A stretch of DNA of 64,000 bases from Siphonodentalium dalli. Lineage: Eukaryota > Mollusca > Scaphopoda > Gadilida > Siphonodentaliidae. This document shows positions 123-63,368 of this stretch, in pieces. The stretch covers positions 249,769,827-249,833,826 of the forward strand of contig CP136064.1 in assembly GCA_032622095.1 (NCBI GenBank), given 5' to 3'. The translations under genes were made by a program, and so were the position numbers. Below the pieces are notes generated by a model. The model searched no databases. It was not told the DNA's origin and saw only the letters and a program-made list of their open reading frames with translations. Position 1 is the first letter of the stretch, and every line of letters starts with the position of its first letter.

Positions 123-230
123 ATCTGTTTCCGGTCCATCCAGTGTAGCAATTGCAGGTGTAGTTTCCCATACCGTTATCATAACAAGAGCCGTGATATC
201 CACAAGGGTTATACACGCATGGTGACGTGT
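123..230 (-). CDS. EGF exon 1, type A/B chimera
   Basis: 108 nt. The body is type A (YHGSCYDNGMGNYTCNC), but the last residues are GNR and the donor is the strong GTGAGT of type B, so the 3' part of the exon looks converted by a B copy. Confidence 0.82.
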
Positions 231-3200
231 CTGTTGAAAACAAGGAACCCGGCTTTAAAGTGTGGTTAGTAGATCACAATCTGTACAAGCCTTAATGTTC
301 TTAATAATTCGAATATTAATGTGTTATTGGAAATGTGTGACATTATTGCCATGCGTTTGCTGAATTTGAAGTTCGCCATCAACAGTGATTATTGATATTT
401 AGACGAAAAAGAGTTATGATTCGAAAACAATACATCAAACAATATACCAATAAAGGAAGACGTACCTAATAAGATACACATATAGCTAAAGACTCAGAAA
501 CGCAAACACAACATTGTAGTAATCGTTTCCGCTAAAGTAAATGCAATTTCCAACTTTTATTTTGTTCGGTAGGGAACAGTGATTGCATGTAGGAAATGAT
601 ACTCACAGTTGTTCGTTTGGTTACCTGCAATGTTAGATTGATAGCAAGTGAGTGGTCATCTATGAGTCTGTTGGTGATGTGGACTCATCATATACATTGG
701 TGAAATAAGTAACTAGGCATTATCTCACATGATACTTTAGCGCCCAGTGTGGATGGGTTGATGTATACTATAAATTGATATCCAACTACTGAGGAATCTT
801 AAAACATTATATTAGGAGATTCATGCTGCTGAAAATTAATAGAGTATGGTTAGTGTTAATGCCTAAAACGAGACGCATGACTATAATATAATATTCTTCA
901 CAAAAGCTGTAAGGTCTAAATTCAAAGTGCACAACGAGAACGGAACATACATGTATAACTACCTATAACGGGACATAACCACATTCACGTGATTACATGG
1001 TGTGTATTGTGATTTCAATCACACCATTATCACGAACTATACATATAAATTTTCTTACATGGACGATTTGGTTGAGAATTGGTAATTTTTACTTTTGAGT
1101 ACTTCTGTGATTATCAGCTGACGATATATGGTTATCAGAGTTACATCAATGCTCACAATACATATGATGATTAATTGTTTATTTTAATTTACCTTGCACA
1201 CAGCTTATCTGGGGATGCTTCAGTTTGCCGCAAATCAATCGTTTTCAAAACGGTAAAATGTTGATTCCATTATAAACCAGGTTGACGATTTATTTAACAA
1301 AATGACTTGTATTTTCGCAATATATAAATATATACTCGCCATATTCACAGCTGTGTCCTGTCCATCCAGTGTAGCAATTGCAGGTGTAGTTTCCCATACC
1401 GTTATCATAACAAGAGCCGTGATATCCACAAGGGTTATACACGCATGGTGACGTGTCTGTTGAAAACAAGGAACCCGTCTTTAAAGTGTGGTTAGTAGAT
1501 CACAATCTGTACAAGTCTTAATGTTCTTAATAATTCGAATATTAATGTGTTATTGGAAATGTGTGACATCCTTGCCATGCGTTTGCTGAATTTGAAGTTC
1601 GCCATCAACAGTGATTATTGATATTTAGACGAAAAAGAGTTATGATTCGAAAACAATACATCAAACAATATACCAATAAAGGAAGACGTACCTAATAAGA
1701 TACACATATAGCTAAAGACTCAGAAACGCAAACAAAACATTGTAGTAATCGTTTCCGCTAAAGTAAATGCAATTTCCAACATTTATTTTGTTCGGTAGGG
1801 AACAGTGATTGCATGTAGGAAATGATACTCACAGTTGTTCGTTTGGTTACCTGCAATGGTAGATTGATAGCAAGTGAGTGGTCATCTATGAGTCTGTTGG
1901 TGATGTGGACTCATCGTATAAATTGGTGAAATAAGTAACTAGGCATTATCTCACATGATGGTTTAGCGCCCCGTGTGGATGGGTTGGTGTATACTATAAA
2001 TTGAGATCCAACTACTGAGGAATCTTAAAACATTATATTAGGAGAGTCATGCTGCTGAAAATTAATAGAGTATGGTCAGTGTTAATGCCTAAAACGAGAC
2101 GCATGACTATAATATAATATTCTTAACAAAAGTTGTAAGGACTAAATTCGAAACAATGAACACGTTTAAGCTTATGCGGGGTGTCTCTGTTTGCAAATAA
2201 ATAGTGCCCAAAAAGGTAATTGTGTCATCATTGTTGTCAAAGCGGTCATCTTTAAACGAACAGACTCAAACAAGAAAGAAAATCAAACTCAGTTTTGGAC
2301 ATTTAGTTTTCCAAACCATGCTCCATAATTCCGGGGGGGGGGGTAAATTGCATCGGAATTCTCCAAATATAATTAGATTTAGTTTATGTTGAAACAGGTC
2401 AGTATTCTTGAGAAGTAACACGGTTGTAAAACAATCTGAAATCTTTTCGTTCAGCCCATGCCGATATTCTATGGTATGGCCTACATACATTTCCAATAAT
2501 ATGTGTTTGTAGATTCCAAATTGTGCTAGTTATTAAAACTAGAAAGATAATCTTTCAACTACGAATTGTACTCGTAGTTTGTGAGCATTATGTCATATTA
2601 CGTAATCCCAGTGGCTGCAGACTGGCCGTCATCAGCCAATTAATTAATGCATGTATTTATATAACACGATATCTACGCTCCATGTCCATTGATACTGACA
2701 TGACTTAATATCGTGCCAAATTGACGACGAGAATATTTTATCTAATTACTTCAAATTAGGCTCCTTTTGGTGCTGAAATTCGCTTCTTTGAAAAAATGCA
2801 CACCGAGAACGGAACATACATGTATAACTACCTATAACGGGACATAACCGCATTCAAGTGATTATATAGTGTGTATTGTGATTTCAACCACTCCATTGTC
2901 ACGAACTATAAATATAAATTTTCTTAAATGGACGATTTGGTTGAGAATTGGTAATTTTTACGCTTGAGTACTTCTGTGGTTATCAGCTATCGATATATGG
3001 TTATCAGAGTTACATCAATGCTCACAATACATATGATGAATAATTGTTTATTTTAATTTACCTTGCACACAGGTTATCTGGGGATGCTTCAGTTTGCAAA
3101 TCAATCGTTTTCAAAACGGTAAAATGTTGATTCCATTATAAACCAGGTTGACGATTTATTTAACAAAATGACTTGTATTTTCGCAATATATAAATATATA

Positions 3201-6200
3201 CTCGCCATATTCACAGCTGTGTCCTGTCCATCCAGTGTAGCAATTGCAGGTGTAGTTTCCCATACCGTTATCATAACAAGAGCCGTGATATCCACAAGGG
3301 TTATACACGCATGGTGACGTGTCTGTTGAAAACAAGGAACCCGGCTTTAAAGTGTGGTTAGTAGATCACAATCTGTACAAGCCTTAATGTTCTTAATAAT
3401 TCGAATATTAATGTGTTATTGGAAATGTGTGACATTATTGCCATGCGTTTGCTGAATTTGAAGTTCGCCATCAACAGTGATTATTGATATTTAGACGAAA
3501 AAGAGTTATGATTCGAAAACAATACATCAAACAATATACCAATAAAGGAAGACGTACCTAATAAGATACACATATAGCTAAAGACTCAGAAACGCAAACA
3601 CAACATTGTAGTAATCGTTTCCGCTAAAGTAAATGCAATTTCCAACTTTTATTTTGTTCGGTAGGGAACAGTGATTGCATGTAGGAAATGATACTCACAG
3701 TTGTTCGTTTGGTTACCTGCAATGGTAGATTGATAGCAAGTGAGTGGTCATCTATGAGTCTGTTGGTGATGTGGACTCATCGTATAAATTGGTGAAATAA
3801 GTAACTAGGCATTATCTCACATGATGGTTTAGCGCCCCGTGTGGATGGGTTGGTGTATACTATAAATTGAGATCCAACTACTGAGGAATCTTAAAACATA
3901 TTAGGAGATTCATGCTGCTGAAAATTAATAGAGCATGGTCAGTTTTAATGCCTAATACGAGACGCATGACTATAATATAATATTCTTCACAAAAGCTGTA
4001 AGGACTAAATTCGAAACAATGAACACGTTTAAGGTTATGCGGGGTGTCTCTGTTTGCGAATAAATCGTGCTCAAAAAGGTAATTGTGTCAACATTGTTGT
4101 CAAAGCGGTAATCTTTAAAGGCGCGTGCGGCCTTAATTATCGAAAATATTCATATTTGTTCCAAACACCGTAAACAGAAAAACATTAAAACGCATACAGT
4201 TCCGTTCATATATACCATGACCATCGCGTAAACAGCATGTTATCACAAAGACCTACTATATTTTACCTAAGCAAGAGCCTGATTGTGTTACAGAAGACAA
4301 CACAATGCTACTGGCTAATCACACATAAATGGCATAAACGCTCTTTATTAGTTCCATATCAGGTATTCACCAACAAAGAACGCTCTTTATGTTTACCATC
4401 ATAATATAAACAAACACCAGAAAAGTTACTTTTTATGCTTTTGTTTACATAACAATGGTCAAACATATGACCATAACATACTGTTTATGCGATTTTACTT
4501 ATTTGTATACGGACAAAGTCTATCTACATTTTTATGTTCTTTCTGTTTGTGGCGGTTTTTGACGGGTGGAGATATTTTCACAGGATACCCACCGCCAAGG
4601 CCAACCGTGTCTTTAAACGAACAGACTCAAACAAGAAAGAAAATCAAACTCAGTTTTGGACATTTAGTTTTCCAAACCATGCTCCATAATTCCGGGGGGG
4701 GGGGGGGTAAATTGCATCGGAATTCTCCAAAAATAATTAGATTTAGTTTATGTTCAAAGAGGTCAGTATTCTTGAAAAGTAACACGGTTGTGAAACAATC
4801 TGAAATCTGTTCGTTCAGCCATGCCGATATTCTATGGTATGGCCTACATACATTTACAAATATTTAAAGATACGTAGATACGTGGATAGACAACTTTTTA
4901 CTCCAAACTGGGTGTTCGCACCATTAATATGTGTTTGTATATTCCATATTGTGCTAGTTATTAAAACTGGAAAGATAATCTTTCAACTACGAATTGTACT
5001 CGTAGTTTGTGAGCATTATGTCATATTACGTAATCCCAGTGGCTGCAGTCTGGCCGCCATCAGCCAATTAAGTAATGCATGTATTTATGTAACAACACGA
5101 TATCTACGCTCCATGCCCATTGATACTGACATGACTTAATATCCGGCCAAATTGACCACGTGAATATATTATATAATTACTTCAACATAGGCTCCTTTTT
5201 GTGCTGAAATTCGCTGCTATGAAAAAATGCACACCGAGAACGGAACATACATGTATAACTACCTATAACGAGACGTAACGGCATTCACGCACGTGATTAC
5301 ATAGTGTGTATTGTGATTTCAATCACACCATCGTCACGAACTATAAATATTAATTTTCTTACATGGACGATTTGGTTGAGAATTGGTAATTTTTACTTTT
5401 GAGTACTTCTGTGATTATCAGCTATCGATATATGGTTATCAGAGTTACATCAATGCTCACAATACATATGATGAATAATTGTTTATTTTAATTTACCTTG
5501 CACACAGCTTATCTGGGGATGCTTCAGTTTGCAAATCAATCGTTTTCAAAACGGTAAAATGTTGATTCCATTATAAACCAGGTTGACGATTTATTTAACA
5601 AAATGACCTGTATTTACCCAATATATAAATATATACTCGCTATACTCACATCTGTTTCCGGTCCATCCAGTGTAGCAATAGCAGGTGTAGTTTCCGTCCA
5701 TACTGTTATCACCGCAAGAGCCGTGATCTCCACAAGGGTTATACACGCATGGTGACGTGTCTGTTGAAAACAAGGAACCCGGCTTTAAAGTGTGGTTAAT
5801 TGATCACAATCTGTTCAAGTCTTAATGTTCTTAATAACTCGAATATTGATGTGTTATTGGAAATGTGTGACATTCTTACCATGCGTTTGCTGAATTTGAC
5901 GTTCGCGTCAACAGTGATTATTGATATTTAGACTAAAACGAGTTATGATTCGAAAACAATCCATCAAACAATATACTAATAAAGGAACACATCCCTAATA
6001 AGATACCCATATAGCTAAAGACTCAGAAACGCAAACAAAACATTGTAGTAATCGTTTCCGCTAAAGTAAATGCAATTTCCAACTTTTATTTTGTTCGGTA
6101 GGGAACAGTGATTGCATGTAGGAAATGATACTCACAGTTGTTCGTTTGGTTACCTGCAATGTTAGATTGATAGCAAGTGAGTGGTCATCTATGAGTCTGT

Positions 6201-9200
6201 TGGTGATGTGGACTCATCGTATAAATTGGTGAAATAAGTAACTAGGCATTATCTCACATGATGGTTTAGCGCCCCGTGTGGATGGGTTGGTGTATACTAT
6301 AAATTGAGATCCAACTACTGAGGAATCTTAAAACATTATATTAGGAGAGTCATGCTGCTGAAAATTAATAGAGTATGGTCAGTGTTAATGCCTAAAACGA
6401 GACGCATGACTATAATATAATATTCTTAACAAAAGTTGTAAGGACTAAATTCGAAACAATGAACACGTTTAAGCTTATGCGGGGTGTCTCTGTTTGCAAA
6501 TAAATAGTGCCCAAAAAGGTAATTGTGTCATCATTGTTGTCAAAGCGGTCATCTTTAAACGAACAGACTCAAACAAGAAAGAAAATCAAACTCAGTTTTG
6601 GACATTTAGTTTTCCAAACCATGCGCCATAATTCCGGGGGGGGGGAGGTAAATTGCATCGGAATTCTCCAAATATAATTAGATTTAGTTTATGTTGAAAC
6701 AGGTCAGTATTCTTGAGAAGTAACACGGTTGTAAAACAATCTGAAATCTTTTCGTTCAGCCCATGCCGATATTCTATGGTATGGCCTACATACATTTCCA
6801 ATAATATGTGTTTGTAGATTCCATATTGTGCTAGTTATTAAAACTAGAAAGATAATCTTTCAACTACGAATTGTACTCGTAGTTTGTGAGCATTATGTCA
6901 TATTACGTAATCCCAGTGGCTGCAGACTGGCCGTCATCAGCCAATTAATTAATGCATGTATTTATATAACACGATATCTACGCTCCATGCCCATTGATAC
7001 TGACATGACTTAATATCGTGCCAAATTGACGACGAGAATATTTTATCTAATTACTTCAAATTAGGCTCCTTTTGGTGCTGAAATTCGCTTCTTTGAAAAA
7101 ATGCACACCGAGAACGGAACATACATGTATAACTACCTATAACGGGACATAACCGCATTCAAGTGATTATATAGTGTGTATTGTGATTTCAACCACACCA
7201 TTGTCACGAACTATAAATATAAATTTTCTTACATGGACGATTTGGTTGAGAATTGGTAATTTTTACGCTTGAGTACTTATGTGGTTATCAGCTATCGATA
7301 TATGGTTATCAGAGTTACATCAATGCTCACAATACATATGATGAATAATTTTTTATTTTAATTTACCTTGCACACAGCTTATCTTGGGATGCTTCAGTTT
7401 GCAAATCAATCGTTTTCAAAACGGTAAAATGTTGATTCCATTATAAACAAGGTTGACGTTTCATTTAACAAAATGATTTATACTCGCCATACTCACATCT
7501 GTTTCCGGTCCATCCAGTGTAGCAATAGCAGGTGTAGTTTCCGTCCATACCGTTATCACCACAAGAGCCGTGATCTCCACAAGGGTTATACACGCATGGT
7601 GACGTGTCTGTTGAAAACAAGGAACCCGGCTTTAAAGTGTGGTTAATTGATCACAATCTGTACAAGTCTTAATGTTCTTAATAACTCGAATATTAATGTG
7701 TTATTGGAAATGTGTGACATTCTTACCATGCGTTTGCTGAATTTGAAGTTCGCGTCAACAGTGATTATTGATATTTAGACTAAAATGAGTTATGATTCGT
7801 CACAATACATCAAACAATATACTAATAAAGGAAGACGTACCTAATAAGATACCCACATAGCTAAAGGCTCAGAAACTTAAACAACACATTTTAGTAACCG
7901 TTTCCGCTAAAGTAAATGCAATTTCCAACTTTTATTTTGTTCGGTAGGGAATAGTGATTGCATGTAGGAAATGATACTCACAGTTGTTCGTTTGGTTACC
8001 TGCAATGTTAGATTGATAGCAAGTGAGTGGTCATCTATGAGTCTGTTGGTGATGTGGACTCATCATATAAATTGGTGAAATAAGTAACTAGGCATTATCT
8101 CACATGATAGTTTAGCGCCCAGTGTGGATGGGTTGGTGTATACTATAAATTGAGATCCAACTACTGAGGAATCTTAAATCATATTAGGAGATTCATGCTG
8201 CTGAAAATTAATAGAGTATGGTCAGTTTTAATGCCTATTACGAGACGCATGACTATAATATAATATTCTTCACAAAAGCTGTAAGGACTAAATTCGAAAC
8301 AATGAACACGTTTAAGCTTATGTGGGGTGTCTCTGTTTGCGAATAAATCGTGCTCAAAAAGGTAATTGTGTCAACATTGTTGTCAAAGCGGTAATCTTTA
8401 AACGAACAGACTCAAACAAGAAAGAAAATCAAACTCAGTTTTGGACATTTAGTTTTCCAAACCATGCTCCATAATTCCGGGGGGGGGGGTAAATTGCATC
8501 GGAATTCTCCAAAAATAATTAGATTTAGTTTATGTTCAAACAGGTCAGTATTCTTGAAAAGTAACACGGTTGTGAAACAATCTGAAATCTTTTCGTTCAG
8601 CCAATGCCGATATTCTATGGTATGGCCTACATACATTTACAAATATTTAAAGATACGTAGATACGTGGATAGACAACTTTTTACTCCAAACTGGGTGTTC
8701 GCACCATTAATATTTGTTTGTATATTCCATATTGTGCTAGTTATTAAAACTGGAAAGATAATCTTTCAACTACGAATTGTACTCGTAGTTTGTGAGCATT
8801 ATGTCATATTACGTAATCCCAGTGGCTGCAGTCTGGCCGTCATCAGCCAATTAATTAATGCATGTATTTATGTAACAACACGATATCTACGCTCCATGCC
8901 CATTGATACTGACATGACTTAATATCCGGCCAAATTGACCACGTGAATATATTATATAATTACTTCAACATAGGCTCCTTTTTGTGCTGAAATTCGCTGC
9001 TATGAAAAAATGCACACCGAGAACGGAACATACATGTATAACTACCTATAACGAGACGTAACGGCATTCACGTGATTACATAGTGTGTATTGTGATTTCA
9101 ATCACACCATCGTCACGAACTATAAATATTAATTTTCTTACATGGACGATTTGGTTGAGAATTGGTAATTTTTACTTTTGAGTACTTCTGTGATTATCAG

Positions 9201-12200
9201 CTATCGATATATGGTTATCAGAGTTACATCAATGCTCACAATACATATGATGAATAATTGTTTATTTTAATTTACCTTGCACACAGCTTATCTGGGGATG
9301 CTTCAGTTTGCAAATCAATCGTTTTCAAAACGGTAAAATGTTGATTCCATTATAAACCAGGTTGACGATTTATTTAACAAAATGACCTGTATTTACCCAA
9401 TATATAAATATATACTCGCTATACTCACATCTGTTTCCGGTCCATCCAGTGTAGCAATAGCAGGTGTAGTTTCCGTCCATACTGTTATCACCGCAAGAGC
9501 CGTGATCTCCACAAGGGTTATTCACGCATGGTGACGTGTCTGTTGAAAACAAGGAACCCGGCTTTAAAGTGTGGTTAATTGATCACAATCTGTACAAGTC
9601 TTAATGTTCTTAATAACTCGAATATTAATGTGTTATTGGAAATGTGTGACATTCTTACCATGCGTTTGCTGAATTTGACGTTCGCGTCAACAGTGATTAT
9701 TGATATTTAGACTAAAAAGAGTTATGATTCGAAAACAATCCATCAAACAATATACTAATAAAGGAACACATTCCTAATAAGATACCCATATAGCTAAAGA
9801 CTCAGAAACGCAAACAAAACATTGTAGTAATCGTTTCCGCTAAAGTAAATGCAATTTCCAACTTTTATTTTGTTCGGTAGGGAACAGTGATTGCATGTAG
9901 GAAATGATACTCACAGATGTTCGTTTGGTTACCTGCAATGTTAGATTGATAGCAAGTGAGTGGTCATCTATGAGTCTGTTGGTGATGTGGACTCATCATA
10001 TAAATTGGTGAAATAAGTAACTAGGCATTATCTCACATGATACTTTAGCACCCAGTGTGGATGGGTTGATGTATACTATAAATTGATATCCAACTACTGA
10101 GGAATCTTAAAACATTATATTAGGAGATTCATGCTGCTGAAAATTAATAGAGTATGGTTAGTGTTAATGCCTAAAACGAGACGCATGACTATAATATAAT
10201 ATTCTTCACAAAAGCTGTAAGGTCTAAATTCAAAGTGCACAACGAGAACGGAACATACATGTATAACTACCTATAACGGGACATAACCACATTCACGTGA
10301 TTACATGGTGTGTATTGTGATTTCAATCACACCATTATCACGAACTATAAATATAAATTTTCTTACATGGACGATTTGGTTGAGAATTGGTAATTTTTAC
10401 TTTTGAGTACTTCTGTGATTATCAGCTGACGATATATGGTTATCAGAGTTACACCAATTCTCACAATACATATGATGATTAATTGTTTATTTTAATTTAC
10501 CTTGCACACAGCTTATCTGGGGATGCTTCAGTTTGCCGCAAATCAATCGTTTTCAAAACGGTAAAATGTTGATTCCATTATAAACCAGGTTGACGATTTA
10601 TTTAACAAAATGACTTGTATTTTCGCAATATATAAATATATACTCGCCATATTCACAGCTGTGTCCTGTCCATCCAGTGTAGCAATTGCAGGTGTAGTTT
10701 CCCATACCGTTATCATAACAAGAGCCGTGATATCCACAAGGGTTATACACGCATGGTGACGTGTCTGTTGAAAACAAGGAACCCGGCTTTAAAGTGTGGT
10801 TAGTAGATCACAATCTGTACAAGCCTTAATGTTCTTAATAATTCGAATATTAATGTGTTATTGGAAATGTGTGACATTATTGCCATGCGTTTGCTGAATT
10901 TGAAGTTCGCCATCAACAGTGATTATTGATATTTAGACGAAAAAGAGTTATGATTCGAAAACAATACATCAAACAATATACCAATAAAGGAAGACGTACC
11001 TAATAAGATACACATATAGCTAAAGACTCAGAAACGCAAACAAAACATTGTAGTAATCGTTTCCGCTAAAGTAAATGCAATTTCCAACATTTATTTTGTT
11101 CGGTAGGGAACAGTGATTGCATGTAGGAAATGATACTCACAGTTGTTCGTTTGGTTACCTGCAATGGTAGATTGATAGCAAGTGAGTGGTCATCTATGAG
11201 TCTGTTGGTGATGTGGACTCATCGTATAAATTGGTGAAATAAGTAACTAGGCATTATCTCACATGATGGTTTAGCGCCCCGTGTGGATGGGTTGGTGTAT
11301 ACTATAAATTGAGATCCAACTACTGAGGAATCTTAAAACATTATATTAGGAGAGTCATGCTGCTGAAAATTAATAGAGTATGGTCAGTGTTAATGCCTAA
11401 AACGAGACGCATGACTATAATATAATATTCTTAACAAAAGTTGTAAGGACTAAATTCGAAACAATGAACACGTTTAAGCTTATGCGGGGTGTCTCTGTTT
11501 GCAAATAAATCGTGCCCAAAAAGGTAATTGTGTCATCATTGTTGTCAAAGCGGTCATCTTTAAACGAACAGACTCAAACAAGAAAGAAAATCAAACTCAG
11601 TTTTGGACATTTAGTTTTCCAAACCATGCGCCATAATTCCGGAGGGGGGGGGGGGGGTAAGTTGCATCGGAATTCTCCAAATATAATTAGATTTAGTTTA
11701 TGTTGAAACAGGTCAGTATTCTTGAGAAGTAACACGGTTGTAAAACAATCTGAAATCTTTTCGTTCAGCCCATGCCGATATTCTATGGTATGGCCTACAT
11801 ACATTTCCAATAATATGTGTTTGTAGATTCCATATTGTGCTAGTTATTAAAACTAGAAAGATAATCTTTCAACTACGAATTGTACTCGTAGTTTGTGAGC
11901 ATTATGTCATATTACGTAATCCCAGTGGCTGCAGACTGGCCGTCATCAGCCAATTAATTAATGCATGTATTTATATAACACGATATCTACGCTCCATGCC
12001 CATTGATACTGCCATGACATAATATCGTGCCAAATTGACGACGAGAATATTTTATCTAATTACTTCAAATTAGGCTCCTTTTGGTGCTGAAATTCGCTTC
12101 TTTGAAAAAATGCACACCGAGAACGGAACATACATGTATAACTACCTATAACGGGACATAACCGCATTCAAGTGATTATATAGTGTGTATTGTGATTTCA

Positions 12201-15200
12201 ACCACACCATTGTCACGAACTATAAATATAAATTTTCTTACATGGACGATTTGGTTGAGAATTGGTAATTTTTACGCTTGAGTACTTCTGTGGTTATCAG
12301 CTATCGATATATGGTTATCAGAGTTACATCAATGCTCACAATACATATGATGAATAATTGTTTATTTTAATTTACCTTGCACACAGCTTATCTGGGGATG
12401 ATTCAGTTTGCAAATCAATCGTTTTCAAAACGGTAAAATGTTGATTCCATTATAAACAAGGTTGACGATTTATTTAACAAAATGACCTGTATTTACCCAA
12501 TATATAAATATATACTCGCCATACTCACATCTGTTTCCGGTCCATCCAGTGTAGCAATAGCAGATGTAGTTTTCGTCCATACCGTTATCACCGCAAGAGC
12601 CGTGATCTCCACAAGGGTTATACACGCATGGTGACGTGTCTGTTGAAAACAAGGAACCCGGCTTTAAAGTGTGGTTAATTGATCACAATCTCTACAAGTC
12701 TTAATGTTCTTAATAACTCGAATATTAATGTGTTATTGGAAATGTGTGACATTCTTACCATGCGTTTGCTGAATTTGAAGTTCGCGTCAACAGTGATTAT
12801 TGATATTTAGACTAAAATGAGTTATGATTCGTCAGAATACATCAAACAATATACCAATAAAGGAAGACGTACCTAATAAGATACCCACATAGCTAAAGGC
12901 TCAGAAACTTAAACAACACATTTTAGTAACCGTTTCCGCTAAAGTAGATGCAATTTCAAACTTATATTTTGTTCGGTAGGGAATAGTGATTGCATGTAGG
13001 AAATGATACTCACAGTTGTTTCGTTTGGTTACCTGCAATGTTAGATTGATAGCAAGTGAGTGGTCATCTATGAGTCTGTTGGTGATGTGGACTCATCATA
13101 TAAATTGGTGAAATAACTAACTAGGGCATTATCTCACATGATAGTTTAGCGCCCAGTGTGGATGGGTTGGTGTATACTATAAATTGAGATCCAACTACTG
13201 AGGAATCTTAAAACATATTAGGAGATTCATGCTGCTTGAAAATTAATAGAGTATGATCAGTTTTAATGCCTAATACGAGACGCATGACTATAATATAATA
13301 TTCTTCACAAAAGCTGTAAGGAATAAATTCGAAACAATGAACACGTTTAAGCTTATGCGGGGTGTCTCTGTTTGCGAATAAATCGTGCTCAAATAGGTAA
13401 TTGTGTCAACATTGTTGTCAACAGCGGTAATCTTTAAACGAACAGACTCAAACAAGAAAGAAAATCAAACTCAGTTTTGGACATTTAGTTTTCCAAACCA
13501 TGCTCCATAATTCCGGGGGGGGGGGGGTAAATTGCATCGGAATTCTCCAAAAATAATTAGATTTAGTTTATGTTCAAACAGGTCAGTATTCTTGAAAAGT
13601 AACAACGGTTGTGAAACAATCTGAAATCTTTTCGTTCAGCCCAATGCCGATATTCTATGGTATGGCCTACATACATTTACAAATATTTAAAGATACGTAG
13701 ATACGTGGATAGACAACTTTTTACTCCAAACTGGGTGTTCGCACCATTAATATTTGTTTGTATATTCCATATTGTGCTAGTTATTAAAACTGGAAAGATA
13801 ATCTTTCAACTACGAATTTTACTCGTAGTTTGTGAGCATTATGTCATATTACGTAATCCCAGTGGCTGCAGTCTGGCCGTCGTCAGCCAATTAATTAATG
13901 CATGTATTTATGTAACAACACGATATCTACGCTCCATGCCCATTGATACTGACATGACTTAATATCCGGCCAAATTGACCACGTGATATATTATATAATT
14001 ACTTCAACATAGGCTCCTTTTTGTGCTGAAATTCGCTGCTAATGAAAAAATGCACACCGAGAACGGAACATACACGTATAACTACCTATAACGAGACGTA
14101 ACGGCATTCACGTGATTACATAGTGTGTATTGTGATTTCAATCACACCATCGTCACGAACTATAAATATTAATTTTCTTACATGGACGATTTGGTGAGAA
14201 TTGGTAATTTTTACTTTTGAGTACTTCTGTGATTATCAGCTATCGATATATGGTTATCAGAGTTACATCAATGCTCACAATACATATGATGAATAATTGT
14301 TTATTTTAATTTACCTTGCACACAGCTTATCTGGGGATGCTTCAGTTTGCAAATCAATCGTTTTCAAAACGGTAAAATGTTGATTCCATTATAAACCAGG
14401 TTGACGATTTATTTAACAAAATGACCTGTATTTACCCAATATATAAATATATACTCGCTATACTCACATCTGTTTCCGGTCCATCCAGTGTAGCAATAGC
14501 AGGTGTAGTTTCCGTCCATACTGTTATCACCGCAAGAGCCGTGATCTCCACAAGGGTTATACACGCATGGTGACGTGTCTGTTGAAAACAAGGAACCCGG
14601 CTTTAAAAGTGTGGTTAATTGATCACAATCTGTACAAGTCTTAATGTTCTTAATAACTCGAATATTAATGTGTTATTGGAAATATGTGACATTCTTACCA
14701 TGCGTTTGCTGAATTTGACGTTCGCGTCAACAGTGATTATTGATATTTAGACTAAAAAGAGTTATGATTCGAAAACAATCCATCAAACAATATACTAATA
14801 AAGGAACACATCCCTAATAAGATACCCATATAGCTAAAGACTCAGAAACGCAAACAAAACATGTAGTAATCGTTTCCGCTAAAGTAAATGCAATTTCCAA
14901 CTTTTATTTTGTTCGGTAGGGAACAGTGATTGCATGTAGGAAATGATACTCACAGTTGTTCGTTTGGTTACCTGCAATGTTAGATTGATAGCAAGTGAGT
15001 GGTCATCTATGAGTCTGTTGGTGATGTGGACTCATCATATAAATTGGTGAAATAAGTAACTAGGCATTATCTCACATGATACTTTAGCGCCCAGTGTGGA
15101 TGGGTTGATGTATACTATAAATTGATATCCAACTACTGAGGAATCTTAAAACATTATATTAGGAGATTCATGCTGCTGAAAATTAATAGAGTATGGTTAG

Positions 15201-51200: not shown

Positions 51201-54200
51201 AGTTTTCCAAACCATGCGCCATAATTCCGGGGGGGGGGGGTAAATTACATCGGAATTCTCCAAATATAATTAGATTTAGTTTATGTTGAAACAGGTCAGT
51301 ATTCTTGAGAAGTAACACGGTTGTAAAACAATCTGAAATCTTTTCGTTCAGCCCATGCCGATATTCTATGGTATGGCCTACATACATTTCCAATAATATG
51401 TGTTTGTAGATTCCATATTGTGCTAGTTATTAAAACTAGAAAGATAATCTTTCAACTACGAATTGTACTCGTAGTTTGTGAGCATTATGTCATATTACGT
51501 AATCCCAGTGGCTGCAGACTGGCCGTCATCAGCCAATTAATTAATGCATGTATTTATATAACACGATATCTACGCTCCATGCCCATTGATACTGACATGA
51601 CTTAATATCGTGCCAAATTGACGACGAGAATATTTTATCTAATTACTTCAAATTAGGCTCCTTTTGGTGCTGAAATTCGCTTCTTTGAAAAAATGCACAC
51701 CGAGAACGGAACATACATGTATAACTACCTATAACGGGACATAACCGCATTCAAGTGATTATATAGTGTGTATTGTGATTTCAACCACACCATCGTCACG
51801 AACTATAAATATTAATTTTCTTACATGGACGATTTGGTTGAGAATTGGTAATTTTTACGCTTGAGTACTTCTGTGGTTATCAGCTATCGATATATGGTTA
51901 TCAGAGTTACATCAATGCTCACAATACATATGATGAATAATTGTTTATTTTAATTTACCTTGCACACAGCTTATCTGGGGATGCTTCAGTTTGCAAATCA
52001 ATCGTTTTCAAAACGGTAAAATGTTGATTCCATTATAAACCAGGTTGACGATTTATTTAACAAAATGACCTGTATTTACCCAATATATAAATATATACTC
52101 GCTATACTCACATCTGTTTCCGGTCCATCCAGTGTAGCAATAGCAGGTGTAGTTTCCGTCCATACCGTTATCACCGCAAGAGCCGTGATCTCCACAAGGG
52201 TTATACACGCATGGTGACGTGTCTGTTGAAAACAAGGAACCCGGCTTTAAAGTGTGGTTAATTGATCACAATCTGTACAAGTCTTAATGTTCTTAATAAC
52301 TCGAATATTAATGTGTTATTGGAAATGTGTGACATTCTTACCATGCGTTTGCTGAATTTGACGTTCGCGTCAACAGTGATTATTGATATTTAGACTAAAA
52401 AGAGTTATGATTCGAAAACAATCCATCAAACAATATACTAATAAAGGAACACATCCCTAATAAGATACCCATATAGCTAAGACTCAGAAACGCAAACAAA
52501 ACATTGTAGTAATCGTTTCCGCTAAAGTAAATGCAATTTCCAACTTTTATTTTGTTCGGTAGGGAACAGTGATTGCATGTAGGAAATGATACTCACAGTT
52601 GTTCGTTTGGTTACCTGCAATGTTAGATTGATAGCAAGTGAGTGGTCATCTATGAGTCTGTTGGTGATGTGGACTCATCATATAAATTGGTGAAATAAGT
52701 AACTAGGCATTATCTCACATGATAGTTTAGCGCCCAGTGTGGATGGGTTGGTGTATACTATAAATTGAGATCCAACTACTGAGGAATCTTAAAACATATT
52801 AGGAGATTCATGCTGCTGAAAATTAATAGAGTATGGTCAGTTTTAATGCCTAATACGAGACGCATGACTATAATATAATATTCTTCACAAAAGCTGTAAG
52901 GACTAAATTCGAAACAATGAACACGTTTAAGGTTATGCGGGGTGTCTCTGTTTGCGAATAAATCGTGCTCAAAAAGGTAATTGTGTCAACATTGTTGTCA
53001 AAGCGGTAATCTTTAAACGAACAGACTCAAACAAGAAAGAAAATCAAACTCAGTTTTGGACATTTAGTTTTCCAAACCATGCGCCATAATTCTGGGGTGG
53101 GGGTAAATTACATCGGAATTCTCCAAATATAATTAGATTTAGTTTATGTTGAAACAGGTCAGTATTCTTGAGAAGTAACACGGTTGTAAAACAATCTGAA
53201 ATCTTTTCGTTCAGCCCATGCCGATATTCTATGGTATGGCCTACATACATTTCCAATAATATGTGTTTGTAGATTCCATATTGTGCTAGTTATTAAAACT
53301 AGAAAGATAATCTTTCAACTACGAATTGTACTCGTAGTTTGTGAGCATTATGTCATATTACGTAATCCCAGTGGCTGCAGACTGGCCGTCATCAGCCAAT
53401 TAATTAATGCATGTATTTATATAACACGATATCTACGCTCCATGCCCATTGATACTGACATGACTTAATATCGTGCCAAATTGACGACGAGAATATTTTA
53501 TCTAATTACTTCAAATTAGGCTCCTTTTGGTGCTGAAATTCGCTTCTTTGAAAAAATGCACACCGAGAACGGAACATACATGTATAACTACCTATAACGG
53601 GACATAACCGCATTCAAGTGATTATATAGTGTGTATTGTGATTTCAACCACACCATTGTCACGAACTATAAATATAAATTTTCTTACATGGACGATTTGG
53701 TTGAGAATTGGTAATTTTTACGCTTGAGTACTTCTGTGGTTATCAGCTATCGATATATGGTTATCAGAGTTACATCAATGCTCACAATATATATGATGAA
53801 TAATTGTTTATTTTAATTTACCTTGCACACAGCTTATCTGGGGATGCTTCAGTTTGCAAATCAATCGTTTTCAAAACGGTAAAATGTTGATTCCATTATA
53901 AACAAGGTTGACGATTTATTTAACAAAATGACCTGTATTTACCCAATATATAAATATATACTCGCCATACTCACATCTGTTTCCGGTCCATCCAGTGTAG
54001 CAATAGCAGATGTAGTTTTCGTCCATACCGTTATCACCGCAAGAGCCGTGATCTCCACAAGGGTTATACACGCATGGTGACGTGTCTGTTGAAAACAAGG
54101 AACCCGGCTTTAAAGTGTGGTTAATTGATCACAATCTGTACAAGTCTTAATGTTCTTAATAACTCGAATATTAATGTTGTTATTGGAAATGTGTGACATT

Positions 54201-57200
54201 CTTACCATGCGTTTGCTGAATTTGAAGTTCGCGTCAACAGTGATTATTGATATTTAGACTAAAAAGAGTTATGATTCGTCACAATACATCAAACAATATA
54301 CAAATAAAGGAAGACGTACCTAATAAGATACCCACATAGCTAAAGGCTCAGAAACGCAAACAAAACAATTTACTAACCGTTTCCGCTAAAGTAGATGCAG
54401 TTTCCAACTTTTATTTTGTTCGGTAGGGAACAGTGATTGCATGTAGGAAATGATACTCACAGTTGTTCGTTTGGTTACCTGCAATGTTAGATTGATAGCA
54501 AGTGAGTGGTCATCTATGAGTCTGTTGGTGATGTGGACTCATCATATAAATTGGTGAAATAAGTAACTAGGCATTATCTCACATGATAGTTTAGCGCCCA
54601 GTGTGGATGGGTTTGGAGTATACTATAAATTGAGATCCAACTACTGAGGAATCTTAAAATATATTAGGAGATTCATGCTGCTGAAAATTAATAGAGTATG
54701 GTCAGTTTTAATGCCTAATACGAGACGCATGACTATAATATAATATTCTTCACAAAAGCTGTAAGGACTAAATTCGAAACAATGAACACGTTTAAGCTTA
54801 TGCGGGGTGTCTCTGTTTGCGAATAAATCGTGCTCAAAAAGGTAATTGTGTCAACATTGTTGTCAAAGCGGTAATCTTTAAACGAACAGACTCAAACAAG
54901 AAAGAAAATCAAACTCAGTTTTGGACATTTAGTTTTCCAAACCATGCTCCATAATTCCGGGGGGGGGGGTAAATTTCATCGGAATTCTCCAAAAATAATT
55001 AGATTTAGTTTATGTTCAAACAGGTCAGTATTCTTGAAAAGTAACACGGTTGTGAAACAATCTGAAATCTTTTCGTTCAGCCAATGCCGATATTCTATGG
55101 TATGGCCTACATACATTTACAAATATTTAAAGATACGTAGATACGTGGATAGACAACTTTTTACTCCAAACTGGGTGTTCGCACCATTAATATTTGTTTG
55201 TATATTCCATATTGTGCTAGTTATTAAAACTGGAAAGATAATCTTTCAACTACGAATTGTACTCGTAGTTTGTGAGCATTATGTCATATTACGTAATCCC
55301 AGTGGCTGCAGTCTGGCCGTCGTCAGCCAATTAATTAATGCATGTATTTATGTAACAACACGATATCTACGCTCCATGCCCATTGATACTGACATGACTT
55401 AATATCCGGCCAAATTGACCACGTGAATATATTATATAATTACTTCAACATAGGCTCCTTTTTGTGCTGAAATTCGCTGCTATGAAAAAATGCACACCGA
55501 GAACGGAACATACATGTATAACTACCTATAACGAGACGTAACGGCATTCACGTGATTACATAGTGTGTATTGTGATTTCAATCACACCATCGTCACGAAC
55601 TATAAATATTAATTTTCTTACATGGACGATTTGGTTGAGAATTGGTAATTTTTACTTTTGAGTACTTCTGTGATTATCAGCTATCGATATATGGTTATCA
55701 GAGTTACACCAATGCTCACAATACATATGATGAATAATTGTTTATTTTAATTTACCTTGCACACAGCTTATCTGGGGATGCTTCAGTTTGCAAATCAATC
55801 GTTTTCAAAACGGTAAAATGTTGATTCCATTATAAACCAGGTTGACGATTTATTTAACAAAATGACATGTATTTACCCAATATATAAATATATACTCGCT
55901 ATACTCACATCTGTTTCCGGTCCATCCAGTGTAGCAATAGCAGGTGTAGTTTCCGTCCATACTGTTATCACCGCAAGAGCCGTGATCTCCACAAGGGTTA
56001 TACACGCATGGTGACGTGTCTGTTGAAAACAAGGAACCCGGCTTTAAAGTGTGGTTAATTGATCATAATCTGTTCAAGTCTTAATGTTCTTAATAACTCG
56101 AATATTAATGTGTTATTGGAAATGTGTGACATTCTTACCATGCGTTTGCTGAATTTGACGTTCGCGTCAACAGTGATTATTGATATTTAGACTAAAAAGA
56201 GTTATGATTCGAAAACAATCCATCAAACAATATACTAATAAAGGAACACATCCCTAATAAGATACCCATATAGCTAAAGACTCAGAAACGCAAACAAAAC
56301 ATTGTAGTAATCGTTTCCGCTAAAGTAAATGCAATTTCCAACTTTTATTTTGTTCGGTAGGGAACAGTGATTGCATGTAGGAAATGATACTCACAGTTGT
56401 TCGTTTGGTTACCTGCAATGTTAGATTGATAGCAAGTGAGTGGTCATCTATGAGTCTGTTGGTGATGTGGACTCATCATATACATTGGTGAAATAAGTAA
56501 CTAGGCATTATCTCACATGATAGTTTAGCGCCCAGTGTGGATGGGTTGATGTATACTATAAATTGATATCCAACTACTGAGGAATCTTAAAACATTATAT
56601 TAGGAGATTCATGCTGCTGAAAATTAATAGAGTATGGTTAGTGTTAATGCCTAAAACGAGTCGCATGACTATAATATAATATTCTTCACAAAAGCTGTAA
56701 GGTCTAAATTCAAAGTGCACAACGAGAACCGAACATAATTGTATAACTACCTATAACGGGACATAACCACATTCACGTGATTACATGGTGTGTATTGTGA
56801 TTTCAATCACACCATTATCACGAACTATAAATATAAATTTTCTTACATGGACGATTTGGTTGAGAATTGGTAATTTTTACTTTTGAGTACTTCTGTGATT
56901 ATCAGCTGACGATATATGGTTATCAGAGTTACATCAATGCTCACAATACATATGATGATTAATTGTTTATTTTAATTTACCTTACACACAGCTTATCTGG
57001 GGATGCTTCAGTTTGCCGCAAATCAATCGTTTTCAAAACGGTAAAATGTTGATTCCATTATAAACCAGGTTGACGATTTATTTAACAAAATGACTTGTAT
57101 TTTCGCAATATATAAATATATACTCGCCATATTCACAGCTGTGTCCTGTCCATCCAGTGTAGCAATTGCAGGTGTAGTTTCCCATACCGTTATCATAACA

Positions 57201-60200
57201 AGAGCCGTGATATCCACAAGGGTTATACACGCATGGTGACGTGTCTGTTGAAAACAAGGAACCCGGCTTTAAAGTGTGGTTAGTAGATCACAATCTGTAC
57301 AAGCCTTAATGTTCTTAATAATTCGAATATTAATGTGTTATTGGAAATGTGTGACATTATTGCCATGCGTTTGCTGAATTTGAAGTTCGCCATCAACAGT
57401 GATTATTGATATTTAGACGAAAAAGAGTTATGATTCGAAAACAATACATCAAACAATATACCAATAAAGGAAGACGTACCTAATAAGATACACATATAGC
57501 TAAAGACTCAGAAACGCAAACAAAACATTGTAGTAATCGTTTCCGCTAAAGTAAATGCAATTTCCAACATTTATTTTGTTCGGTAGGGAACAGTGATTGC
57601 ATGTAGGAAATGATACTCACAGTTGTTCGTTTGGTTACCTGCAATGGCAGATTGATAGCAAGTGAGTGGTCATCTATGAGTCTGTTGGTGATGTGGACTC
57701 ATCGTATAAATTGGTGAAATAAGTAACTAGGCATTATCTCACATGATGGTTTAGCGCCCCGTGTGGATGGGTTGGTGTATACTATAAATTGAGATCCAAC
57801 TACTGAGGAATCTTAAAACATTATATTAGGAGAGTCATGCTGCTGAAAATTAATAGAGTATGGTCAGTGTTAATGCCTAAAGCGAGACGCATGACTATAA
57901 TATAATATTCTTAACAAAAGTTGTAAGGACTAAATTCGAAACAATGAACACGTTTAAGCTTATGCGGGGTGTCTCTGTTTGCAAATAAATCGTGCCCAAA
58001 AAGGTAATTGTGTCATCATTGTTGTCAAAGCGGTCATCTTTAAACGAACAGACTCAAACAAGAAAGAAAATCAAACTCAGTTTTGGACATTTAGTTTTCC
58101 AAACCATGCGCCATAATTCCGGGGGGGGGTAAATTGCATCGGAATTCTCCAAATATAATTAGATTTAGTTTATGTTGAAACAGGTCAGTATTCTTGAGAA
58201 GTAACACGGTTGTAAAACAATCTGAAATCTTTTCGTTCAGCCCATGCCGATATTCTATGGTATGGCCTACATACATTTCCAATAATATGTGTTTGTAGAT
58301 TCCATATTGTGCTAGTTATTAAAACTAGAAAGATAATCTTTCAACTACGAATTGTACTCGTAGTTTGTGAGCATTATGTCATATTACGTAATCCCAGTGG
58401 CTGCAGACTGGCCGTCATCAGCCAATTAATTAATGCATGTATTTATATAACACGATATCTACGCTCCATGCCCATTGATACTGACATGACTTAATATCGT
58501 GCCAAATTGACGACGAGAATATTTTATCTAATTACTTCAAATTAGGCTCCTTTTGGTGCTGAAATTCGCTTCTTTGAAAAAATGCACACCGAGAACGGAA
58601 CATACATGTATAACTACCTAAAACGGGACATAACCGCATTCAAGTGATTATATAGTGTGTATTGTGATTTAAACCACACCAATGTCACGAACTATAAATA
58701 TAAATTTTCTTACATGGACGATTTGGTTGAGAATTGGTAATTTTTACGCTTGAGTACTTCTGTTGTTATCAGCTATCGATATATGGTTATCAGAGTTACA
58801 TCAATTCTCACAATACATATGATGAATAATTGTTTATTTTAATTTACCTTGCACACAGCTTATCTGGGGATGCTTCAGTTTGCAAATCAATCGTTTTCAA
58901 AACGGTAAAATGTTGATTCCATTATAAACAAGGTTGACGATTTATTTAACAAAATGACCTGTATTTACCCAATATATAAATATATACTCGCCATACTCAC
59001 ATCTGTTTCCGGTCCATCCAGTGTAGCAATAGCAGATGTAGTTTTCGTCCATACCGTTATCACCGCAAGAGCCGTGATCTCCACAAGGGTTATACACGCA
59101 TGGTGACGTGTCTGTTGAAAACAAGGAACCCGGCTTTAAAGTGTGGTTAATTGATCACAATCTGTACAAGTCTTAATGTTCTTAATAACTCGAATATTAA
59201 TGTGTTATTGGAAATGTGTGACATTCTTACCATGCGTTTGCTGAATTTGAAGTTCGCGTCAACAGTGATTATTGATATTTAGACTAAAAAGAGTTATGAT
59301 TCGTCACAATACATCTAACAATATACAAATAAAGGAAGACGTACCTAATAAGATACCCACATAGCTAAAGGCTCAGAAACGCAAACAAAACAATTTACTA
59401 ACCGTTTCCGCTAAAGTAGATGCAGTTTCCAACTTTTATTTTGTTCGGTAGGGAACAGTGATTGCATGTAGGAAATGATACTCACAGTTGTTCGTTTGGT
59501 TACCTGCAATGTTAGATTGATAGCAAGTGAGTGGTCATCTATGAGTCTGTTGGTGATGTGGACTCATCATATAAATTGGTGAAATAAGTAACTAGGCATT
59601 AACTCACATGATAGTTTAGCGCCCAGTGTGGATGGGTTTGGAGTATACTATAAATTGAGATCCAACTACTGAGGAATCTTAAAACATATTAGGAGATTCA
59701 TGCTGCTGAAAATTAATAGAGTATGGTCAGTTTTAATGCCTAATACGAGACGCATGACTATAATATAATATTCTTCACAAAAGCTGTAAGGACTAAATTC
59801 GAAACAATGAACACGTTTAAGCTTATGCGGGGTGTCTCTGTTTGCGAATAAATCGTGCTCAAAAAGGTAATTGTGTCAACATTGTTGTCAAAGCGGTAAT
59901 CTTTAAACGAACAGACTCAAACAAGAAAGAAAATCAAACTCAGTTTTGGACATTTAGTTTTCCAAACCATGCTCCATAATTCCGGGGGGGGGGGTAAATT
60001 TCATCGGAATTCTCCAAAAATAATTAGATTTAGTTTATGTTCAAACAGGTCAGTATTCTTGAAAAGTAACACGGTTGTGAAACAATCTGAAATCTTTTCG
60101 TTCAGCCAATGCCGATATTCTATGGTATGGCCTACATACATTTACAAATATTTAAAGATACGTAGATACGTGGATAGACAACTTTTTACTCCAAACTGGG

Positions 60201-63200
60201 TGTTCGCACCATTAATATTTGTTTGTATATTCCATATTGTGCTAGTTATTAAAACTGGAAAGATAATCTTTCAACTACGAATTGTACTCGTAGTTTGTGA
60301 GCATTATGTCATATTACGTAATCCCAGTGGCTGCAGTCTGGCCGTCGTCAGCCAATTAATTAATGCATGTATTTATGTAACAACACGATATCTACGCTCC
60401 ATGCCCATTGATACTGACATGACTTAATATCCGGCCAAATTGACCACGTGAATATATTATATAATTACTTCAACATAGGCTCCTTTTTGTGCTGAAATTC
60501 GCTGCTATGAAAAAATGCACACCGAGAACGGAACATACATGTATAACTACCTATAACGAGACGTAACGGCATTCACGTGATTACATAGTGTGTATTGTGA
60601 TTTAAACCACACCAATGTCACGAACTATAAATATTAATTTTCTTACATGGACGATTTGGTTGAGAATTGGTAATTTTTACTTTTGAGTACTTCTGTGATT
60701 ATCAGCTATCGATATATGGTTATCAGAGTTACACCAATGCTCACAATACATATGATGAATAATTGTTTATTTTAATTTACCTTGCACACAGCTTATCTGG
60801 GGATGCTTCAGTTTGCAAATCAATCGTTTTCAAAACGGTAAAATGTTGATTCCATTATAAACCAGGTTGACGATTTATTTAACAAAATGACCTGTATTTA
60901 CCCAATATATAAATATATACTCGCCATACTCACATCTGTTTCCGGTCCATCCAGTGTAGCAATAGCAGATGTAGTTTTCGTCCATACCGTTATCACCGCA
61001 AGAGCCGTGATCTCCACAAGGGTTATACACGCATGGTGACGTGTCTGTTGAAAACAAGGAACCCGGCTTTAAAGTGTGGTTAATTGATCACAATCTCTAC
61101 AAGTCTTAATGTTCTTAATAACTCGAATATTAATGTGTTATTGAAATGTGTGACATTCTTACCATGCGTTTGCTGAATTTGAAGTTCGCGTCAACATTGA
61201 TTATTGATATTTAGACTAAAATGAGTTATGATTCGTCACAATACATCAAACAATATACCAATAAAGGAAGACGTACCTAATAAGATACCCACATAGCTAA
61301 ATCCTCAGAAACTTAAACACATTTTAGTAACCGTTTCCGCTAAAGTAGATGCAATTTCAAACTTTTATTTTGTTCGGTAGGGAATAGTGATTGCATGTAG
61401 GAAATGATACTCACAGTTGTTCGTTTGGTTACCTGCAATGTTAGATTGATAGCAAGTGAGTGGTCATCTATGAGTCTGTTGGTGATGTGGACTCATCATA
61501 TAAATTGGTGAAATAAGTAACTAGGCATTATCTCACATGATAGTTTAGCGCCCAGTGTGGATGGGTTGGTGTATACTATAAATTGAGATCCAACTACTGA
61601 GGAATCTTAAATCATATTAGGAGATTCATGCTGCTGAAAATTAATAGAGTATGGTCAGTTTTAATGCCTAATACGAGACGCATGACTATAATATAATATT
61701 CTTCACAAAAGCTGTAAGGACTAAATTCGAAACAATGAACACGTTTAAGCTTATGTGGGGTGTCTCTGTTTGCGAATAAATCGTGCTCAAAAAGGTAATT
61801 GTGTCAACATTGTTGTCAAAGCGGTAATCTTTAAACGAACAGACTCAAACAAGAAAGAAAATCAAACTCAGTTTTGGACATTTAGTTTTCCAAACCATGC
61901 TCCATAATTCCGGGGGGGGGGGGGGTAAATTGCATCGGAATTCTCCAAAAATAATTAGATTTAGTTTATGTTCAAACAGGTCAGTATTCTTGAAAAGTAA
62001 CACGGTTGTGAAACAATCTGAAATCTTTTCGTTCAGCCAATGCCGATATTCTATGGTATGGCCTACATACATTTACAAATATTTAAAGATACGTAGATAC
62101 GTGGATAGACAACTTTTTACTCCAAACTGGGTGTTCGCACCATTAATATTTGTTTGTATATTCCATATTGTGCTAGTTATTAAAACTGGAAAGATAATCT
62201 TTCAACTACGAATTGTACTCGTAGTTTGTGAGCATTATGTCATATTACGTAATCCCAGTGGCTGCAGTCTGGCCGTCATCAGCCAATTAATTAATGCATG
62301 TATTTATGTAACAACACGATATCTACGCTCCATGCCCATTGATACTGACATGATTTAATATCCGGCCAAATTGACCACGTGAATATATTATATAATTACT
62401 TCAACATAGGCTCCTTTTTGTGCTGAAATTCGCTGCTATGAAAAAATGCACACCGAGAACGGAACATACATGTATAACTACCTATAACGAGACGTAACGG
62501 CATTCACGTGATTACATAGTGTGTATTGTGATTTCAATCACACCATCGTCACGAACTATAAATATTAATTTTCTTACATGGACGATTTGGTTGAGAATTG
62601 GTAATTTTTACTTTTGAGTACTTCTGTGATTATCAGCTATCGATATATGGTTATCAGAGTTACATCAATGCTCACAATACATATGATGAATAATTGTTTA
62701 TTTTAATTTACCTTGCACACAGCTTATCTGGGGATGCTTCAGTTTGCAAATCAATCGTTTTCAAAACGGTAAAATGTTGATTCCATTATAAACCAGGTTG
62801 ACGATTTATTTAACAAAATGACCTGTATTTACCCAATATATAAATATATACTCGCTATACTCACATCTGTTTCCGGTCCATCCAGTGTAGCAATAGCAGG
62901 TGTAGTTTCCGTCCATACTGTTATCACCGCAAGAGCCGTGATCTCCACAAGGGTTATTCACGCATGGTGACGTGTCTGTTGAAAACAAGGAACCCGGCTT
63001 TAAAGTGTGGTTAATTGATCACAATCTGTACAAGTCTTAATGTTCTTAATAACTCGAATATTAATGTGTTATTGGAAATGTGTGACATTCTTACCATGCG
63101 TTTGCTGAATTTGACGTTCGCGTCAACAGTGATTATTGATATTTAGACTAAAAAGAGTTATGATTCGAAAACAATCCATCAAACAATATACTAATAAAGG

Positions 63201-63368: not shown

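Follow-up and report, generated by a model that had tools for sequence, protein, structure and literature searches.

Is the sixth cysteine (Cys6) of each EGF module at this locus encoded within its own exon, or supplied by a very short exon next to it? The 64,000-nucleotide stretch analysed (the window) belongs to contig C4 in a 2.23-Gb genome of 9 contigs and is occupied by a tandem array of near-identical EGF exons. A sequence-only reading of the window had claimed that an 18-nt microexon in every unit completes Cys6, and that skipping it would leave an odd cysteine.

The array of EGF exons and 18-nt segments

The window contains 36 EGF exons, all on the minus strand and spanning positions 123..62975 (Table 1). 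Measured up to the proximal of two candidate donors, they are 111 or 108 nt long (109 nt in the frameshifted one) and carry five cysteines, the sixth being available through the distal donor or the microexon. Against PF00008 (curated cut-off 21.5 bits), two joined translations, one including the microexon and one omitting it, scored 36.2 and 36.4 bits. A whole-window pattern count of GTAACCAAACGAACAACT gave 32 exact matches and 3 with one mismatch, on the minus strand throughout, against a chance expectation of 0.07 matches with up to 3 mismatches. A copy was present upstream of all 36 EGF exons (32 exact, 3 with one mismatch and 1 with a one-base insertion), and the flanks described earlier, ATTGCAG on the 5' side and GTGAGT on the 3' side, were present at all 36 copies. 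The claimed length of 18 nt applied to 35 of the 36 units, the thirty-sixth having a 19-nt segment, GTAACCAAACGAAACAACT, with both flanks kept; the spacing upstream of each EGF exon, given as 375-376 nt, was in fact 370-376 nt, mostly 374-376 nt. The phases T|GT and T|AC agreed with the earlier description, and the segment reads T|GT AAC CAA ACG AAC AAC T|AC (C-N-Q-T-N-N-Y). Microexons are about 27 nt or less in size, and this short in-frame segment with AG and GT flanks has the sequence characters of one. The two one-base insertions, one in a microexon copy and one in an EGF exon, are in nearby units and in short homopolymers, and represent genuine lesions or assembly errors.

The whole array covers ~91 kb and comprises 52 EGF exons and 53 microexon copies, with a microexon at both ends. 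An inverted copy ~107 kb away from the near end of the array consists of a single EGF exon between two microexons, and the sequence directly around it agrees with the array flanks at 96-97%. A large broken inverted repeat is centred at ~249.89 Mb, with an identity of mostly 94-99% in the longer matched pieces, and its arms contain 52 EGF units and the single unit, respectively. A candidate last exon is located downstream of the array; its acceptor is in phase 1, and it encodes a stalk rich in Thr and Ser and a C-terminus that is hydrophobic. A search for the sequence at its start gave one match in the array arm and three in the mirror arm, where this exon is embedded in direct repeats of ~1.9 kb. 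Amplification therefore seems to have affected different exons in the two arms.

Relatives of a candidate upstream exon were sought in the genome, and only its mirror copy was found (91% amino-acid identity). Pfam queries from the flanks (one clean open frame and two peptides from listed open frames) gave no match for the candidate upstream exon and, for the candidate last exon, only a match at E = 0.27, far short of the cut-off. A crude composition scan for further upstream exons yielded nothing convincing beyond the 165-nt candidate, and no signal-peptide exon was found. Searching 264 kb beyond the array and mirror with a five-cysteine EGF core pattern returned no more EGF exons; three or four other matches there were chance-like. 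Nine related open frames of 135-176 amino acids, on the plus strand and antisense within array introns, are probably chance or a mobile-element remnant.

Table 1. Features of the array and its surroundings (window positions unless contig C4 is given)
Feature	Position	Strand	Remark
Microexon copies, part 1 of 3 (36 in all)	607-624, 1833-1850, 3699-3716, 6136-6153, 7982-7999, 9915-9932, 11141-11158, 13014-13032 (19 nt), 14954-14971, 16184-16201, 18066-18083, 20001-20018	-	
Microexon copies, part 2 of 3	21227-21244, 23096-23113, 24965-24982, 26828-26845, 28764-28781, 29990-30007, 31860-31877, 33727-33744, 35588-35605, 37523-37540, 39393-39410, 41258-41275	-	
Microexon copies, part 3 of 3	43127-43144, 45063-45080, 46932-46949, 48795-48812, 50729-50746, 52597-52614, 54461-54478, 56395-56412, 57621-57638, 59486-59503, 61415-61432, 63351-63368	-	
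19-nt microexon copy (one-base insertion)	13014..13032	-	frame broken if included
EGF exons, first bases in transcript sense, part 1 of 3	230, 1456, 3322, 5760, 7607, 9539, 10764, 12639, 14578, 15807, 17691, 19625	-	
EGF exons, first bases, part 2 of 3	20850, 22720, 24589, 26452, 28388, 29613, 31484, 33351, 35212, 37147, 39017, 40882	-	
EGF exons, first bases, part 3 of 3	42751, 44687, 46556, 48420, 50353, 52222, 54085, 56019, 57244, 59111, 61044, 62975	-	
Type A EGF exon, example, 111 nt	40772..40882	-	phase 1-1 given proximal donor T|GTGAGT
Type B EGF exon, example, 108 nt	1349..1456	-	weak proximal T|GTGAAT, distal G|GCGAGT retained
EGF exon with one-base insertion, 109 nt	15699..15807	-	frame broken
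9 nt between donors, GTGAGTATA (other types GTGAGTATG or GTGAATATG)	40763..40771	-	via distal donor: rest of Cys6, Glu, Tyr, one base
GCGAGT, candidate GC-type donor	40757..40762	-	Cys6 + 7 nt, where EGF exons of this genome usually end
Candidate upstream exon, 165 nt	contig C4 249843408-249843572	-	phase 1/phase 1, ends in G
Antisense open frames (nine)	4352-4867, 8395-8922, 27364-27771, 36060-36530, 43599-44069, 49209-49736, 54875-55402, 59900-60427, 61828-62358	+	
Large broken inverted repeat	contig C4 ~249728000-249864000 and 249917000-249970000		
Mirror-arm Thr/Ser-rich last exon within direct repeats	contig C4 249949002-249956266		

Low variability of the microexon region

A scan of a single 1754-nt intron gave 63 open segments of 3-120 nt in phase 1 at both ends, 7 of them Cys-first, and the microexon ranked third among the 63 and first among the 7. 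Since 370 of 400 shuffled introns offered some open Cys-first AG...GT segment of 3-60 nt, and 14 of 400 one scoring at least as high as the microexon, the restoration of Cys6 is weak evidence alone. The low variability of the segment and its splice sites together is better evidence. Over the 53 aligned rows, a 66-nt alignment window (40 nt before the microexon, the microexon itself and 8 nt after it) had 4 variable columns, whereas pure-intron windows averaged 11.2, never had fewer than 6 and in no case (0/531) reached 4 or fewer; as the intron windows overlap, this corresponds to roughly a dozen independent tests. Beyond the microexon region, the only 66-nt windows that were equally low covered the EGF acceptor. 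With 52 nt over the microexon region, 0/573 intron windows were as low, whereas 44 nt (26 nt plus the microexon, without the donor) and 26 nt (the microexon plus 8 nt of the donor) were less exceptional (40/597 and 77/651 intron windows as low, respectively). A symmetric microexon is likely because the 66-nt region was less variable than all 531 intron windows, and judging by phase, splice signals and low variability the 18-nt symmetric microexon is probably real.

The candidate with the best raw splice score, a 60-nt segment (5.1, compared with 3.7), was set aside, as it lies in a stretch (columns 0-80) without special conservation. An origin of the microexon as a decayed copy of the 3' end of the EGF exon was likewise rejected: the alignment score of 34 was equalled in 19 of 500 shuffles, and some intron windows also reached a local alignment score of 34.

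Two candidate donors around the Cys6 codon

The sequence-only reading had the EGF exons ending in GNR plus T. This end, before GTGAGT, was found in 29 of the 36 exons of the window, but the remaining 7 end in H-S (6) or H-R (1) plus T|GTGAAT. That the exon lacks Cys6, as was also claimed, would be correct only if the proximal donor is used; however, in the DNA every array EGF exon continues with TGT and, 7 nt on, GCGAG or GCGAGT. The proximal T|GTGAGT and the distal (A/G)|GCGAGT are thus 9 nt apart and in a common phase, with the Cys6 codon between them. Among 53 rows (the 52 array EGF exons and the mirror copy) three exon types were distinguished: type A, with T|GTGAGTATA then GCGAGT (26/53 rows, 19/36 in the window); type A', with T|GTGAGTATG then GCGAG(T) (13/53 and 10/36); and type B, with T|GTGAATATG then GCGAGT (14/53 and 7/36). 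Phase-2 donors after Cys6 (GA|GTATAG, GA|GTATAT) were discarded, being mismatched with the phase-1 acceptors.

Splice sites were scored with position weight matrices (PWM) of generic donor and acceptor values. The proximal donor scored 5.3 in types A and A' and -0.2 in type B, and the distal donor -2.0 bits in type A and 1.9 in types A' and B. The microexon donor scored 3.9, and 26 other EGF donors of the genome had a median of 6.4 (range -0.4 to 10.6). The microexon acceptor (1.4) was within the range of the other EGF acceptors, 9 of 26 of which scored lower. The proximal donor was the higher-scoring one in 39 of 53 exons and the distal donor in the 14 with GTGAAT. When the distal site was checked against the GC-donor consensus, the base before GC was G in 27 of 53 rows and A in 26. 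No row (0/53) had both donors weakened (GTGAAT at the proximal site and A before the distal GC), which carries little weight and is only suggestive, because the exon types are few lineages.

Because both donors and the microexon have one phase in common, four products are possible. Three of them would keep six cysteines, and only proximal splicing without the microexon would lose one. The microexon, which had been thought to complete Cys6 everywhere, is therefore one of two possible routes to it, its need for Cys6 being supported only in part, and the predicted cost of skipping would apply after proximal splicing only. Direct joining by the distal route gives C-E-Y-D/N-T-S-P-C, with six residues from Cys6 to the next Cys1. 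The 'C-E-Y' is no proof of coding, since any T|GTGAGT donor automatically yields TGT GAG.

We tentatively favour, from the sequence features described, an arrangement of two tandem donors around Cys6 and an in-frame cassette microexon that would restore Cys6 after proximal splicing only. From the observed sequences, phases, low variability and site scores we infer transcription, exon use, the extent of the gene and its protein as follows. The window would be part of an animal gene on the minus strand that encodes a surface or secreted protein with EGF repeats. In this gene, an EGF exon and an 18-nt phase-1/phase-1 microexon would have been amplified to ~52 copies, followed by the Thr/Ser-rich last exon. 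Use of the distal donor would leave Cys6 in the exon, with the microexon in or out, while use of the proximal donor would remove Cys6 and the T|GT of the microexon would bring it back. By donor strength, type A exons (26/53) would be spliced by the proximal donor plus microexon, type B (14/53) by the distal donor and type A' (13/53) by either. A mixture by exon type would be expected because the distal donor fits the usual EGF plan while most exons have a stronger proximal donor. Against this arrangement, GC donors are rare, the distal donor scores poorly in type A, the site weights are generic, the smaller alignment windows are less striking, the EGF exon varies as much as its preceding intron, and there are two frame-breaking insertions. 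The likelihoods we attach to the different explanations are not mutually exclusive. More specifically, the Cys6 codon may be shared with the microexon in most units, so that inclusion and skipping would switch modules of a ~52-module protein between six and five cysteines, the other types keeping Cys6 via the GC donor; we regard this stronger version as doubtful.

The exon plan usual in this genome was obtained from EGF matches outside the array and mirror, 40 of 74 of which were read, mostly in short open frames, so that the sample favours single-EGF exons. A six-cysteine module was recognised by script in 36 of the 40 loci; of the other four, L037 and L057 stop before Cys6, L046 appears broken, and L063, missed by the pattern, has the usual end by eye. 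At Cys6 + 7 nt, 26 of the 36 parsed loci had GT, 2 had GC and 8 something else, the usual exon end thus being two codons plus one base beyond Cys6. One of the two GC loci, L062, has an open reading that runs beyond this point; the other, L065, has G|GCGAGT, whereas its relatives L048, L049, L066 and L068 have G|GTGAGT. For 27 loci with usual ends entered into an acceptor scan (1 without a usable acceptor, 26 answered), six residues were predicted between Cys6 and the next Cys1 in 23 of 26 exons. EGF exon queries matched only the array and the inverted copy at high identity, the next matches being at 58% identity or less among the best candidates scored, and no retrocopies with spliced junctions were found in this search.

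That all EGF exons end at T|GTGAGT, the microexon always supplying Cys6 and its skipping leaving an odd cysteine, is possible but unlikely. Such an obligatory role agrees with the stronger proximal donor in 39 of 53 exons, the intact microexon sites in an unusually invariant stretch, the fitting phases and the rank of the microexon as best Cys-first candidate in the scanned intron. It has parallels in L037 and L057, where the exon stops before Cys6, after ...GFTG or ...GWTG, and Cys6 must therefore come from a later exon. However, 14 of 53 exons (7/36 in the window) have GTGAAT, and every array unit has GCGAG(T) at the very position where 26 of 36 other loci have GT. In 4 of 36 other loci (L040, L045, L051 and L062, none followed by T) TGTGAG simply encodes Cys6 and Glu, and in two of these (L045 and L051) the usual position has a GT donor. 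The six-cysteine pattern also counts a Cys6 that is only read through, so a split codon is possible at other loci. Moreover, because the candidate upstream exon ends in G, the first array microexon would give Gly, not Cys, if that exon is real.

Conversely, Cys6 may always be encoded within the exon, with GC donors, direct joins and an unused microexon-like segment, or one serving as an optional linker, which we consider improbable. The exon end, phase and six-residue linker would then agree with most other EGF exons read, L065 has the same GC where its relatives have GT, and the change from GTGAGT to GTGAAT would be silent as Glu. GC-AG introns make up under 1% of introns in model organisms (PMC7072748); they may derive from GT donors, and conversion of GT to GC donors is described for mammals (PMC2490688). 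Against exclusive use of GC stand the very weak distal donor of the 26 type A exons (-2.0 bits), the strong proximal site overlapping Cys6, and a microexon region that is unusually invariant for unused intron.

A decaying or non-functional tandem duplication, with no selection on either segment, is less probable again and is compatible with the splicing models. The two frame-breaking insertions point in this direction, as does the EGF exon itself, in which no purifying signal was seen: π was 0.044, similar to the 0.041 of the preceding intron, and 15 of 19 variable columns tallied from the aligned rows were amino-acid-changing and 4 silent. On the other hand, 51 of the 52 array EGF exons are open with their cysteines in place, variability is lowest in the splice regions and the flanking exon candidates are phase-compatible.

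Re-spliced microexons are known from Drosophila Ubx. The microexon starts with GTAACC, so its joining would recreate a donor-like site (AG|GTAACC, an adjoining acceptor and donor-like site) by which it might be removed in a second step, but the regenerated site scores low behind either donor (distal 2.6, proximal 0.3), with positions +5 and +6 off consensus, making such recursive splicing highly improbable.

Known systems and implications

In their PF00008 match and phase-1 symmetric exons the array units resemble Notch-like tandem EGF repeats, and Notch1 EGF modules were the best solved-structure matches of a two-module chain joined by the distal route; unlike those repeats, the array has ~52 near-identical exons, 18-nt segments between them and two candidate donors at Cys6. 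The end of an EGF module is supplied by another exon in Jagged-1 (exon 5/6), but there EGF1 is completed by a full exon that in most cases follows a phase-2 intron (PMC2725086), whereas the candidate in the array is an 18-nt phase-1 segment holding Cys6 and linker only. Schistosoma MEGs have short symmetric exons that can be skipped in frame; these genes are built largely from symmetric exons no longer than 36 bp (PMC8293314), whereas the array alternates one microexon with an EGF exon, and 52 of its 105 exons are EGF exons of 108-111 nt. In camel WAP, a cysteine-rich secreted protein whose gene has a GC-AG intron, a small in-frame difference at one splice junction, a few residues long, distinguishes the isoforms; it results from extension of exon 3 upstream by 12 nt (PMC6350295), in contrast to the two donors 9 nt apart in the array. 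No published case of a microexon completing an EGF Cys6 was among the matches listed, going by titles and the start of abstracts, from which absence from print is unproven.

If proximal splicing with inclusion of the microexon is true, a structural disulfide would hang on an exon of a kind readily missed in gene prediction, and the EGF modules of such genes would therefore be broken in database models. If instead splicing occurs at the GC donor, the locus would show how Cys-Glu codons (TGT GAG T) can mimic a strong donor and mislead annotation. In both cases, dozens of nearly identical exons with differences at single donor positions make the locus a small natural experiment on the choice of donor.
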